Assembly: GCA_013361955.1 (NCBI GenBank)
Contig: JABFXA010000028.1
Coordinates: forward strand, 1 to 59,687
Length of the DNA stretch: 59,687 bases
From: Nocardioidaceae bacterium
GTDB taxonomy: Bacteria; Actinomycetota; Actinomycetes; Propionibacteriales; Nocardioidaceae
Reading direction: 5' to 3'
Shown here: positions 39,106 through 43,991 of the stretch, piece after piece
Layout of the letters: each line of letters starts with the position of its first letter
Numbering within the stretch: position 1 is the stretch's first letter
Notes under the pieces: model-generated
What the model saw: only the letters and a program-made list of their open reading frames with translations
The model's database searches: none
Told to the model about the DNA's origin: nothing
Program-made: the position numbers and the translations under genes

Positions 39106-41067
39106 GTGGACACGAGACCCGGCAACGCGAAGGCAACGGTCGTCCTGGTCGACGACTCGTCGGACCTGCGCGCGGTCGTCGCGCGGAGCCTGGAGTCGTC
39201 CGGGTTGTTCGAGGTCGTCGCCGAGGCGGGGGACGGCGACGAGGCGTTCCGACAGGTGCACCTCCATCGGCCGGCGCTGCTGCTGATCGACGTCTCGATG
39301 CCGACCGTGGACGGTCTGGAGGCCCTGCCGTCGATCACGGCCCTCTGCCCGGAGACGACCGTCGTGGTCCTCACCGGCTTCGAGGAGCCCGGGCTCGTCG
39401 CGCTGGCGGGTGAGCTCGGGGCTGCCGACGTCGTCGACAAGTCGATCGACCTCCGCGAGCTCCCACAGCGGCTGATGCGGACCCTGGTGCGGGTGGCGGC
39501 CGGCGCGGCCAAGGAGCCGGGACCGCGGCTCCGGCTGGTGGACGGGTCCCCGGGCGCCACGCCGCCGGCCCTCAGCCCGGAGCAGGAGGTGCTCAACGAG
39601 CACGTCCAGCAGTTCCGGCAGCTGTTCGACCAGGCGGCGATCGGGATGGCCACCCTGACCGTGGCGGGCACCGTCGTGCGGGCCAACCCCGCCCTGGCCA
39701 GGCTGATGTCCTGCGAGCCCGACGACCTGGTCGGGGTCGACTACGGCCGGCTGACTCTCGGCGCGGGCGACAGGCTCGACCGCGGTCTGGCGTCCATCAG
39801 CGCGTCCGGCGCCGAGCTCACGACGTTCGAGCATCGCCTCCCCGCCCGGCCCGGTGACCGCCCCGACCGGCTCGTGCGCGTCACCCTCGCCCCGATCCGC
39901 GAGTCGTCGGGACAGGTGCTCTACGTCTTCGCCCAGGTGCAGGACATCACCGCACAGCGCACCATGGAGGGGGACCTGCGACGCAGTGAGGAGAACTTCA
40001 GGCTGCTGGTCACCGCCGTCGAGGAGTACGCGATCTTCATGCTCGACGTCAAGGGGAACGTGGTCAGCTGGAACGCGGGAGCCCAACGCATCAAGGGGTA
40101 CGCCGCCGACGAGATCGTCGGTCGTTCCTTCCGGGTCTTCTACCCCGAACCGGAGCAGGCGTCGGGGCATCCGGAGCGCAACCTGCAGGTCGCGCTGCGC
40201 ACGGGTGGGTTCGCCGAGGAGGGCTGGCGGGTGCGCAAGGACGGCAGCCGGTTCTGGGCCAGCGTGGTGATCAGCCCGGTCTTCGACGACGCCGGGACCC
40301 ACATCGGCTTCGCCAAGGTCACCCGGGACCAGACCAAGCAGCGCGAGCACGAGGAGGAGCGGAAGAACGCGGTCCTCCAGCAGACCCAGCTGCTGGCCGT
40401 GACCGCCCACGAGCTGCGGACCCCGATGGCGGTGATCGACGGCTCCGCCAGCGCACTGCAGGCGTCGTGGAACGACATCCCGGTGCAGCAGCGCGACGAG
40501 CTCGTGGCCGGGATCCGCACCAGCGCCCACCGCCTCCGCCGGCTCGTCTCCGACCTCACGATGGCCTCGCGGGTGTCCGCCCGGACGCTCCAGCTGCGAC
40601 GCGACGACCTGTCGCTGTCGGAGACGCTGCGCCTCGCCGTGGCACGTTCGCACGCGGTCGACCCCGGCGCCGACGTCACCTGGGAGGTGCCCCGTGAGGC
40701 CGTCGTGCACGCCGACGAGGGTCGCCTCGGCCAGGCCCTCGACAACCTGCTCGACAACGCGCTGCGCCACGGGACGTCTCCTGTCGTCGTCACGGGTGCC
40801 GTCGGGCACGACACCGTGCACATCCGGGTCACCGACGCCGGGCCGGGAGTCCCGTCCGCGGTGGTGCCGCGCCTCTTCGACCGGCTGGCCAGTGCCGGCA
40901 GGTCGCGAGGCACCGGCCTCGGCCTGTTCCTCGTCCGCGAGATCGCGCGCAGGCACGGCGGCGAGGCGACGTACCACCCGCCCGGCGCGGGACGTCCGAC
41001 CGCGTTCGAGCTCACGCTTCCCTGGCAGAACCCCGGCGCCCGCCGCGCGCCCCGGCCCGTCGGCTGA
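39106..41067 (+). CDS. Hybrid sensor histidine kinase: REC-PAS-PAS-HisKA-HATPase
   Basis: A 653-residue cytosolic kinase starting at GTG. REC domain at residues 10-130 with DD at 16-17 and phosphoacceptor D62 (LLLIDVSMP). Two PAS domains follow: RQLFDQAAIGMATLTVAGTV (about 165-280) and LLVTAVEEYAIFMLDVKGN with WNAGAQRIKGYAADEIVG (about 300-420). H435 sits in LLAVTAHELRTPM; the N box is LDNLLDNALRHG and the G boxes are VTDAGPGVP and GTGLGLFLV. No membrane segment. An N-terminal receiver ahead of the sensor domains is an uncommon order. No partner response regulator is adjacent. Confidence 0.9.
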   Translation: MDTRPGNAKATVVLVDDSSDLRAVVARSLESSGLFEVVAEAGDGDEAFRQVHLHRPALLLIDVSMPTVDGLEALPSITALCPETTVVVLTGFEEPGLVALAGELGAADVVDKSIDLRELPQRLMRTLVRVAAGAAKEPGPRLRLVDGSPGATPPALSPEQEVLNEHVQQFRQLFDQAAIGMATLTVAGTVVRANPALARLMSCEPDDLVGVDYGRLTLGAGDRLDRGLASISASGAELTTFEHRLPARPGDRPDRLVRVTLAPIRESSGQVLYVFAQVQDITAQRTMEGDLRRSEENFRLLVTAVEEYAIFMLDVKGNVVSWNAGAQRIKGYAADEIVGRSFRVFYPEPEQASGHPERNLQVALRTGGFAEEGWRVRKDGSRFWASVVISPVFDDAGTHIGFAKVTRDQTKQREHEEERKNAVLQQTQLLAVTAHELRTPMAVIDGSASALQASWNDIPVQQRDELVAGIRTSAHRLRRLVSDLTMASRVSARTLQLRRDDLSLSETLRLAVARSHAVDPGADVTWEVPREAVVHADEGRLGQALDNLLDNALRHGTSPVVVTGAVGHDTVHIRVTDAGPGVPSAVVPRLFDRLASAGRSRGTGLGLFLVREIARRHGGEATYHPPGAGRPTAFELTLPWQNPGARRAPRPVG

Positions 41068-41164
41068 GCGCCGCACCGCGGACCCGGCCCTCATCGCCGG
41101 TGGGTGCATGGCGGCCCGGGAGAGGGGGTACGACGCGGCCCCGAGGGAGAGGAGGGGCGCGGGG

Positions 41165-42148
41165 ATGGAGCTGCCCACGCCGCGTGGACCGGTCAGCGCG
41201 CACGTCGTGCACGCGCTGCGGTCCGGGGACGCGTTCGAACCTGCGGTCGCGGCGTCGGCCGACGTGCTCGGCGACGACGCCCAGGTCGCCCTGTGGGTGT
41301 TGCTGCAGCTGCACTACCGCGACTTCGACGACGCCGCCCGCGACGCCGAGTGGGACGTCGGCGCGGTCGCGTTGCGGCAGACCTTGGCGGAGTCCTTCGT
41401 GGACCGCCTGCGCGGGCTCGTGACCGAGCGGGTCGCCCTCGCCCGGGACGCGGCCGACGACGTGCCCGGACAGGTGATGGCGATGATCGGGGCCGCGGAC
41501 GGGCCGTCGCTGGCGGCGTACCTGCACCGGGAGGCGACCCGCGAGCAGGTGCTGTCGTTCCTGAGACAGCGCAGCCTCTACGCCCTCAAGGAGTCCGACG
41601 CGCACTCGTTCGTGCTGCCCCGGGTGCACGGGTCCGTGAAGGTGGCCCTCGCCGAGCTGCAGTACGACGAGTACGGCGCCGGGCGGCCGGACCGCCTACA
41701 CGCGGGGATGTACGCCGAGGCTCTCGTCGCGGCCGGTCTCGACCCCCGCTACGGGAGGTATGTCGACGAGGTGGCCGGCCCGGTGCTGGCGGTGGACAAC
41801 CTGATCTCGGTGCTGGCGCTGCAGCGTCGGACGCGCGCAGCGTCGCTCGGTCAGCTGGCGGCGTTCGAGGCAACCAGCTCGCTGCCGAGCCGCAGGATCG
41901 CCGCCGGGATCGAGCGGGTCGGCCTGCCGAGGGCCGTGGCGGCGTACTTCGACGAGCACGTGGAGGCCGATGCGGCGCACGAGCAGATCGCGTTGCGTGC
42001 CGTGTGCGGCGCTCTCGTCGCGGCCGAACCCGAGCTCGCCGACGACGTGCTCTTCGGGGCGGCGGCGTACCTCGAGCTCGACGAGCGCTCGGCCGTGCAC
42101 CTGCTGGCCCGGTGGCGCGACGACGAGGTCGTGGAGGCCGCGTCGTGA
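41165..42148 (+). CDS. Iron-containing redox enzyme (heme-oxygenase-like diiron protein)
   Basis: A 327-residue all-helical protein. LWVLLQLHYRDFDDAARDAEWD, then QRSLYALKESDAHSF, KVALAELQYDEYGAGRPDRLHAGMYAEAL and YFDEHVEADAAHEQIALRAV fit the heme-oxygenase-like diiron fold (HDO), where H/E/H and E/H residues from several helices bind iron. Known members are oxygenases that fragment or N-oxygenate amines and fatty acids. The ATG at 41165 follows GAGAGGAGGGG; an ATG at 41108 is less likely. It overlaps the CDGSH gene (GTGA), so both are translationally coupled. Confidence 0.8.
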   Translation: MELPTPRGPVSAHVVHALRSGDAFEPAVAASADVLGDDAQVALWVLLQLHYRDFDDAARDAEWDVGAVALRQTLAESFVDRLRGLVTERVALARDAADDVPGQVMAMIGAADGPSLAAYLHREATREQVLSFLRQRSLYALKESDAHSFVLPRVHGSVKVALAELQYDEYGAGRPDRLHAGMYAEALVAAGLDPRYGRYVDEVAGPVLAVDNLISVLALQRRTRAASLGQLAAFEATSSLPSRRIAAGIERVGLPRAVAAYFDEHVEADAAHEQIALRAVCGALVAAEPELADDVLFGAAAYLELDERSAVHLLARWRDDEVVEAAS

Positions 42149-42336
42149 CCGGCCCGGTGCGCGTGACGCCCTGTCCCGACGGACCCCTGCTGGTCCGCGG
42201 TGCCGACGTCGTGACCGACGAGGACGGCACCGACCACCCGGTCACCCGACCGGTCGTCGCGCTGTGCGTCTGCGGCAAGTCCGGCCGCCGGCCGTGGTGC
42301 GACGACACCCACCGATCGATCAGGAGGTCGACATGA
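42145..42336 (+). CDS. CDGSH iron-sulfur-domain protein
   Basis: A 63-residue protein whose C-terminal half holds the CDGSH signature: LCVCGKSGRRPWCDDTHRS, giving C-x-C-x8-C-x3-H ligands for a [2Fe-2S] cluster. The N-terminal VTPCPDGPLLVRGADVVTD is the usual lead-in of short bacterial CDGSH proteins. GTG start overlapping the TGA of the diiron enzyme; its own stop overlaps the next ATG. Probably an electron donor or iron-sulfur accessory for the heme-oxygenase-like enzyme (inference from coupling). Confidence 0.88.
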   Translation: MTGPVRVTPCPDGPLLVRGADVVTDEDGTDHPVTRPVVALCVCGKSGRRPWCDDTHRSIRRST

Positions 42337-42692: not shown

Positions 42693-42733
42693 GCGGCGGG
42701 CGGGTCCTCGCAGGGAGGCGACCCGCCCGCCGC
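42693..42733 (+). terminator. Long GC-rich hairpin between two operons
   Basis: A perfect 14-bp stem: GCGGCGGGCGGGTC (42693-42706) with GACCCGCCCGCCGC (42720-42733), loop 13 nt. No T-run follows, which is usual for actinobacterial terminators. It separates the iron-enzyme unit from the lipoprotein unit; a second, weaker hairpin (CCGG-GCAGCTCC...GGAGC-CCGG) follows near 42768-42793 in the leader of the lipoprotein gene. Confidence 0.65.
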
Positions 42734-42809
42734 TGCAGTCTTGGAATGCCTGCCGATGGGTACGCACCCGGGCAGCTCCGGAAGGGAGCCCGGCGAGAAG
42801 TAGGTCGTC

Positions 42810-43220
42810 ATGCGTGAGCTGACCAGGTACGGCGTGGTCGTGGTGCTGGCCGCGGTCCTGCTCGCGGGCCTGTCCGGGTGCAGCCAGCCGGACGCGCCGG
42901 CGGTCGACTCCGTGGCGCGCGAGTTCCGGAGCACCGCCGCGGACGGCGACACCGCGCGCGCCTGCTCGCTCCTCGCACCAGGCACCCGGGCCGAGCTCGA
43001 GCAGTCGGCCGGCCGGCCGTGTCCGCAGGCACTGGGCCCGGAGGTTCGTCCCGCGGCGGGACGGGTGCGGGGCACCCAGGTGTTCGGCACCATGGCGAAG
43101 GTCGCCTTCGAGCACGACACCGTGTTCCTGGCCGAGTACCGCGGCGGGTGGAAGGTGCTGGCTGCCGCATGCACCCGGGTGCCGGGACATCCGTACGACT
43201 GTCACCTGCAAGGAGGCTGA
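42810..43220 (+). CDS. Small lipoprotein
   Basis: A 136-residue secreted lipoprotein. MRELTRYGVVVVLAAVLLAGLSGC is a type II signal peptide with the lipobox Cys at 24. The mature part (AVDSVAREFRSTAADGDTARACSLLAPGTRAELE) resembles the small actinobacterial NTF2-like/hypothetical lipoproteins in which a conserved Cys pair (RACSLL...GRPCPQ) probably forms a disulfide, plus a later pair (AACTRV...YDCHL). Anchored on the outer face of the membrane. First gene of a unit with a 27-residue peptide and a DUF6766-type protein. Confidence 0.8.
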   Translation: MRELTRYGVVVVLAAVLLAGLSGCSQPDAPAVDSVAREFRSTAADGDTARACSLLAPGTRAELEQSAGRPCPQALGPEVRPAAGRVRGTQVFGTMAKVAFEHDTVFLAEYRGGWKVLAAACTRVPGHPYDCHLQGG

Positions 43221-43221
43221 C

Positions 43222-43305
43222 GTGCGCGCCCTCTTCGTGGTCTACCTGGTCGTGATCTTCGGTGGCCTGGCCGCCATGTTCGTGCTGGGGATGGTGCACA
43301 CATGA
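43222..43305 (+). CDS. 27-residue single-helix membrane peptide
   Basis: VRALFVVYLVVIFGGLAAM then FVLGMVHT: almost entirely hydrophobic, one membrane helix with a G-G-x-x-A packing motif. GTG start preceded by AAGGAGG at 5-nt spacing, an excellent SD; the stop overlaps the next ATG (ATGA). Too short for ordinary gene prediction. It may be an assembly subunit or regulator of the adjacent DUF6766-type membrane protein (inference). Confidence 0.65.
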   Translation: MRALFVVYLVVIFGGLAAMFVLGMVHT

Positions 43306-43991
43306 GTGCCAGGACTCGCTCGCGGCCCTTCCGGGAGTCGTCGCTCGGGATCTTCTTCGGGGTCATCTTCCTGGCCGCGCTGGTCGGCCAGGCGGTCGCC
43401 GGCTGGCTGGCGTTCAACGACGAGCAGCTCGCCCAGGGGCTCGGTCGGATCGGGCTCGCCGACTACCTCGGCTCGGCCCCCTTCGCCGCCGACGTCGCGG
43501 AGAACTGGCAGAGCGAGTACCTCCAGTTCCTGCTCTACATCACCGCCACGATCTGGCTGCTGCAGAAGGGCTCCCCGGAGTCCAAGGAGCTGGACAAGCA
43601 GGGGCTGGAGAGCGACGAGGACCAGAAGGTGGGGCGGTACGCCGACCCCGACTCGCCGGCGTGGGCCCGCGTCGGCGGGCTGAGGACCACGGTGTTCGCC
43701 TGGTCGTTGACGATCGTGATGGGCCTCGTCTTCGTGCTCTCCTGGCTGGCACAGTCGGTGGCCGGGTGGGCGTCGTACAACGAGACCAGCCTGCAGCAGC
43801 TGCAGGACCCGATCAGCTGGCCGGCGTACCTGCACAATCCCGACTTCTGGTCCCGCACGTTGCAGAACTGGCAGTCGGAGTTCCTGGCCGTGGGTTCGAT
43901 GGCCGTGCTCAGCATCTACCTGCGCCAACGCGGGTCACCGGAGAGCAAGCCCGTCGGCGCCCCGCACGCGAGCACCGGGGTCGAGGGGTGA
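43302..43991 (+). CDS. DUF6766-type membrane protein with internal duplication
   Basis: A 229-residue integral membrane protein with four hydrophobic helices. Residues 17-95 (LVGQAVAGWLAFNDEQL ... ENWQSEYLQFLLYITATIWL and KGSPESK) are repeated at about residues 140-215 (LAQSVAGWASYNETSL ... QNWQSEFLAVGSMAVLSIYL and RGSPESK). Both copies keep SVAGW/AVAGW, NWQSE and GSPESK, so the protein arose by duplication of a two-helix module. Function unknown. Coupled by ATGA to the 27-residue peptide. Confidence 0.78.
   Translation: MSARTRSRPFRESSLGIFFGVIFLAALVGQAVAGWLAFNDEQLAQGLGRIGLADYLGSAPFAADVAENWQSEYLQFLLYITATIWLLQKGSPESKELDKQGLESDEDQKVGRYADPDSPAWARVGGLRTTVFAWSLTIVMGLVFVLSWLAQSVAGWASYNETSLQQLQDPISWPAYLHNPDFWSRTLQNWQSEFLAVGSMAVLSIYLRQRGSPESKPVGAPHASTGVEG

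Follow-up and report, generated by a model that had tools for sequence, protein, structure and literature searches.

The window, a 59,687-nucleotide stretch of DNA from a Nocardioidaceae bacterium, contains an operon of three genes encoding, in order, a lipoprotein, a single-helix membrane peptide of 27 residues (VRALFVVYLVVIFGGLAAMFVLGMVHT) and a membrane protein of the DUF6766 family (Table 1). A single base separates the stop codon of the lipoprotein gene from the GTG start of the peptide gene, the Shine-Dalgarno sequence of which lies within the lipoprotein gene. The stop codon of the peptide gene then overlaps the DUF6766 start as ATGA. Re-reading of the sequence returned this gene layout as an earlier note on the same DNA had described it, together with the AAGGAGG sequence and the overlap. 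It also confirmed the duplication that the note had proposed for the membrane protein, the two halves of which are 38% identical over 84 amino acids (BLASTP E 2e-18). An inverted repeat with perfectly matched arms of 14 bp (GCGGCGGGCGGGTC / GACCCGCCCGCCGC), a loop of 13 nt and no T run lies just ahead of a candidate promoter and may be the terminator of the genes before it.

Table 1. Features of the operon and of the region ahead of it (positions are those of the window).
Feature	Position	Strand	Remarks
Haem-oxygenase-like gene (PF14518), then overlapping CDGSH iron-sulfur gene (PF09360)	40694-42336		Ahead of the operon; CDGSH gene at 42145-42336, E 1.3e-13
Inverted repeat	42693-42733		
Candidate SigB-type promoter	42738-42763	+	GTCT (42738-42741)-N16-GGGTAC (42758-42763); 46 nt ahead of lipoprotein ATG
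Lipoprotein gene	42810-43220	+	136 aa; stop TGA 43218-43220
Shine-Dalgarno AAGGAGG of the peptide gene	43210-43216	+	Within lipoprotein gene; 5 nt from GTG
27-codon gene, single-helix membrane peptide	43222-43305	+	Start GTG 43222; stop TGA 43303-43305
DUF6766 (PF20554) gene	43302-43991	+	229 aa; ATG 43302-43304; two repeats with four predicted membrane helices in all
DUF6766 repeat 1	43341-43592	+	aa 14-97; motifs ENWQSE, QKGSPESK; from BLASTP of halves and conserved columns
DUF6766 repeat 2	43704-43955	+	aa 135-218; motifs QNWQSE, QRGSPESK; from BLASTP of halves and conserved columns

The DUF6766 protein and its two clades

The membrane protein belongs to DUF6766 over its full length, matching positions 3-220 of the 221 in the profile (E 9.3e-96, 319.8 bits against a cut-off of 27). 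Both repeats contain an NWQSE motif, which starts the second helix, and a QxGSPESK motif after this helix. By the positive-inside rule the termini would be cytoplasmic and the NWQSE motifs would lie near the outer face. Four membrane helices (2 + 2) are seen in the AF2 model, for which the peptide and DUF6766 of Nocardioides jensenii were read through as one chain, with the stop codon taken as Gly and the linker taken from the DNA. This model is moderately confident (pLDDT 77.8, pTM 0.61, peptide approximately 70), and its scores are not informative on contacts. Comparison of the DUF6766 model with solved structures gave no clear fold match (Foldseek E >2, VIA Z at most 4.1), the sequences of solved structures held no match for either DUF6766 or the lipoprotein, and a literature search of partial coverage found no paper naming DUF6766.

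DUF6766 proteins form two separate clades in the tree (split support 1.0), one accompanied by the peptide and one that we refer to as solo. The solo clade includes proteins from Rhizobium, Sinorhizobium, Azospirillum, Microvirga, Deinococcus, Spirosoma and a few actinobacteria, which are 35-43% identical to the window protein. The peptide was found at none of approximately 20 solo-type loci and the lipoprotein is likewise absent from this clade; by this distribution the peptide is an accessory of one DUF6766 clade. A single locus (L006) of the 97 of the peptide type contains neither the peptide nor the lipoprotein, even though its DUF6766 protein is 64% identical to that of the window and belongs to the peptide clade, apparently as the result of a secondary loss. 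The DUF6766 fold as such does not depend on the peptide, as the solo clade and this locus together indicate. Two genomes contain DUF6766 matches broken up between different reading frames, one with L015, L017 and L018 and the other with L012 and L016; these are apparently pseudogenes or sequencing errors.

Conservation and coding status of the peptide

Eighty loci were collected by DUF6766 similarity alone, the peptide playing no part in the selection, from genera that include Nocardioides, Kribbella, Arthrobacter, Actinoplanes, Nonomuraea, Curtobacterium and Streptomyces. A hydrophobic short open reading frame (ORF) lies directly upstream of DUF6766 in all 80. When further loci are added the peptide is found in this position in 96 of the 97 peptide-type loci, which disposes of the possibility, allowed for in the earlier note, that it is not conserved upstream of homologues of the membrane protein. 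This comparative evidence strongly supports two proposals, namely the coupling of the three genes in one unit and a conserved partnership of the peptide with the membrane protein.

With three added records included, 83 peptides were tabulated and 78 of them are exactly 27 amino acids long. Among these 78, Gly15 is invariant, Arg2 is found in 77, and Phe5, Leu9, Ile12 and Leu16 are strongly conserved, giving the consensus MRxxFxxYLxVIxxGLAYFxxxGLxHR. The conservation profile peaks at 100 degrees per residue (permutation p 0.012), which fits a helix with one functional face. Across 30 independent pairs pN/pS is approximately 0.41 and third codon positions take half of the differences, an excess. 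By this pattern of substitution the ORF is a protein-coding gene under selection at the protein level. A Shine-Dalgarno core of at least four bases precedes the peptide gene in 91% of loci, compared with 30% for random control places.

A different explanation of the short ORF is that it serves as a leader or translational-coupling device, in which passage of the ribosome into the DUF6766 start is what matters and the peptide itself is inert. Its spacing is typical of coupling: a four-base overlap between the peptide stop and the DUF6766 start is found in 42 of 82 loci, and in 81 the two are no more than 15 nt apart. However, such a device needs neither selection on amino acids nor a fixed length of 27 residues nor a helical period of conservation, and it has no need of an invariant Gly15 or of near-invariant residues at positions 2, 5, 9, 12 and 16. 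At other loci, moreover, the start codons do not overlap, and we regard this explanation as improbable.

No family for the peptide was found in Pfam or NCBIfam, and in the public plasmid records examined, where the plasmid gene table is incomplete, it has no gene annotation of its own. On the comparative evidence the 27-residue membrane peptide is real, conserved and unannotated in the public records examined. A natural fusion of peptide and DUF6766, suggested by one plasmid annotation (H44), was rejected because the annotated coding sequence begins only where the peptide match ends, at its last base.

The partner of the peptide

A search of 392 actinobacterial genomes with the peptide profile gave eight matches, all of them directly upstream of DUF6766 and none elsewhere. 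The size and hydrophobicity of the peptide, its occurrence on plasmids and its patchy distribution would also fit a small hydrophobic toxin, similar to those of type I, or a free effector of membrane stress similar to YohP. Against this reading, which is very unlikely, the peptide was never found away from DUF6766 in these genomes, its gene is tightly coupled with others and its amino acids are conserved along one face of the helix.

The peptide gene stands ahead of DUF6766 in many soil actinobacteria, and the lipoprotein gene usually precedes it. The two are found together in most loci and both are absent from the solo clade, as they would be if the peptide were a partner of the lipoprotein (for example a membrane anchor or an export helper) and DUF6766 a mere neighbour. 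Three loci that were checked singly (L103, L105 and L107) retain peptide and DUF6766 without the lipoprotein, which makes DUF6766 the likelier partner and the lipoprotein dispensable in some loci. The reverse arrangement, a lipoprotein-peptide pair without DUF6766, was not seen in the searches with the peptide and lipoprotein profiles. The lipoprotein, furthermore, has a signal peptide and lipobox of its own, and a partnership restricted to these two products is unlikely. Judged from its gene associations, the peptide is very probably a functional partner of one DUF6766 clade. A physical complex of the three products may be envisaged, as may stabilization or regulation of DUF6766 by the peptide.

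The lipoprotein

The signal peptide of the lipoprotein leads to the lipobox LSGC, which ends at Cys24, as in bacterial lipoproteins, and lipidation is predicted; the score against PF08139 is 11.5, below the cut-off of 20. In an alignment of 66 relatives the residues C24, C52, C71, F106, W114, C121 and C131 are invariant. The two further conserved cysteine pairs, C52/C71 and C121/C131, suggest disulfides outside the membrane. The AF2 model of the lipoprotein has a pLDDT of 90.9. It superimposes on the ketosteroid-isomerase-like protein 3d9r with a VIA-align Z of 10.2 (rmsd 3.8, 95 residues), and NTF2-like and ketosteroid-isomerase-like proteins are found throughout and at the top of the VIA-align list. 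Foldseek matches of the model are weak (E 0.035 and weaker). An NTF2-like fold is thus predicted for the lipoprotein from its model.

The predicted NTF2 fold is reminiscent of DUF4878-type lipoproteins, and two of the 66 members match DUF4878 at E 0.0019 or weaker. The present group differs from NTF2-like and DUF4878-type proteins in its four further invariant cysteines and in a C-terminal AAGC...PYDC motif. It differs too in that strong matches of its profile occur at DUF6766 loci only. When the best ten candidates per genome were scored, the profile gave seven strong matches (E <1e-28), separated by a gap from a wider lipoprotein family that starts at 2e-10. Six are in genomes with a peptide match, and the locus of the seventh (G178) contains a divergent peptide that was recognized by eye.

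Promoter motif and gene neighbourhood

Promoters of the SigB type in S. coelicolor have a GNNT or GTTT -35 element and a GGGWA -10 element (PMC8346170). The candidate promoter of the window has both elements of this consensus ahead of the operon. A motif of the form GNNT-N15/16-GGGTA[CGT] is found upstream of the operon in approximately 23 of 81 loci, that of the window included, compared with four when the opposite strand of these regions is read; these loci are related and the occurrences are not independent events. The narrower form GCAT-N15-GGGTA is found upstream in ten loci and never on the other strand, a spacer of 15 being sharply preferred, and is approximately 57 times denser upstream of the operon than in the rest of the loci. 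GTTT as the -35 element was found in none of the loci. For the motif survey the lipoprotein starts were set automatically, in some loci wrongly (the window copy as entered in the survey among them), so its distances are approximate. Outside Nocardioidaceae and the group of Nonomuraea and its relatives, most loci do not have the motif. Where present, it suggests that the operon is probably stress-induced under the control of a SigB-type sigma factor.

Between most loci only the lipoprotein, peptide and DUF6766 genes are conserved and the remaining neighbourhood varies. Genes that recur in the flanks encode haem-oxygenase-like proteins (10 loci), hemerythrin (9), GAF-ANTAR proteins (10) and zinc alcohol dehydrogenase (11), which hint at stress islands. 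In the window a response regulator-PAS-histidine kinase gene lies upstream of the haem-oxygenase-like gene. The neighbourhood and the promoter motif would suit a general-stress role for the operon, and it may act in redox or envelope stress.

Comparison with known small subunits and proposed role

The peptide resembles KdpF, CydX and AcrZ in being a tiny one-helix membrane protein that is co-encoded with a large membrane partner and is often unannotated. CydX tracks one clade of CydA (PMC4325964), and the peptide described here similarly follows one clade of its partner. On the other hand, no sequence relation between the peptide and these proteins was found, CydX is longer (37 amino acids against 27) and the partner of the peptide, DUF6766, is uncharacterized. 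As far as its sequence goes, the peptide has the properties of a KdpF/CydX-like subunit, namely a hydrophobic helix, selection at the protein level and one co-encoded partner. Its best profile matches, both insignificant, are to MetS and MetS-like small subunits of NSS transporters (NF033494, E 0.034; NF033493, E 0.12). An assignment as such a subunit was rejected, as the scores are 13.9 and 12.1 bits against cut-offs of 70 and 25, and the gene behind the peptide encodes DUF6766 and not an NSS transporter.

We consider it fairly likely that the operon encodes a probably stress-inducible envelope module of three products, with the peptide as an accessory helix of DUF6766 in the manner of KdpF and CydX. 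The duplicated inner-membrane protein DUF6766, with its 2 + 2 helices, would form the core. The peptide would pack against the membrane domain of DUF6766 via its conserved face (F5, L9, I12, G15/L16 and G23) and, by analogy with KdpF and CydX in their complexes, may stabilize or tune it. The lipoprotein, with its predicted NTF2 fold, would be an optional member on the outer face, where it would probably touch the conserved extracytoplasmic helix ends of DUF6766. Translational coupling, through the Shine-Dalgarno sequence inside the preceding gene and the ATGA overlap, would keep the amounts of the products in step. A more far-reaching proposal, possible and on balance doubtful, is that the peptides are a new family of membrane subunits of 27 residues, obligatory for one DUF6766 clade. 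With the NTF2-fold lipoprotein these would form an undescribed stress-induced envelope complex (a channel, transporter or sensor) that has spread horizontally among actinobacteria.

Tiny helices that serve larger membrane proteins as accessory subunits are a known kind; this peptide family and its partner system are undescribed in the sources searched. They add a well-conserved family of 27-residue proteins and give a first lead on DUF6766. One DUF6766 clade has the accessory helix and the other does not, a natural comparison by which a role of the peptide as a subunit can be tested directly. In the solo clade, three rhizobial DUF6766 genes (L125, L137 and L142) have an EcfG-like GGAAC-N16/17-GTT sequence 55-69 nt upstream; for the solo alphaproteobacterial genes as a group, EcfG-type control (3 of 13 loci against 4.4% expected) is too weak to claim. 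Several alphaproteobacterial DUF6766 copies adjoin general-stress genes, which encode DUF982, ferritin-like, YihY and general stress proteins.
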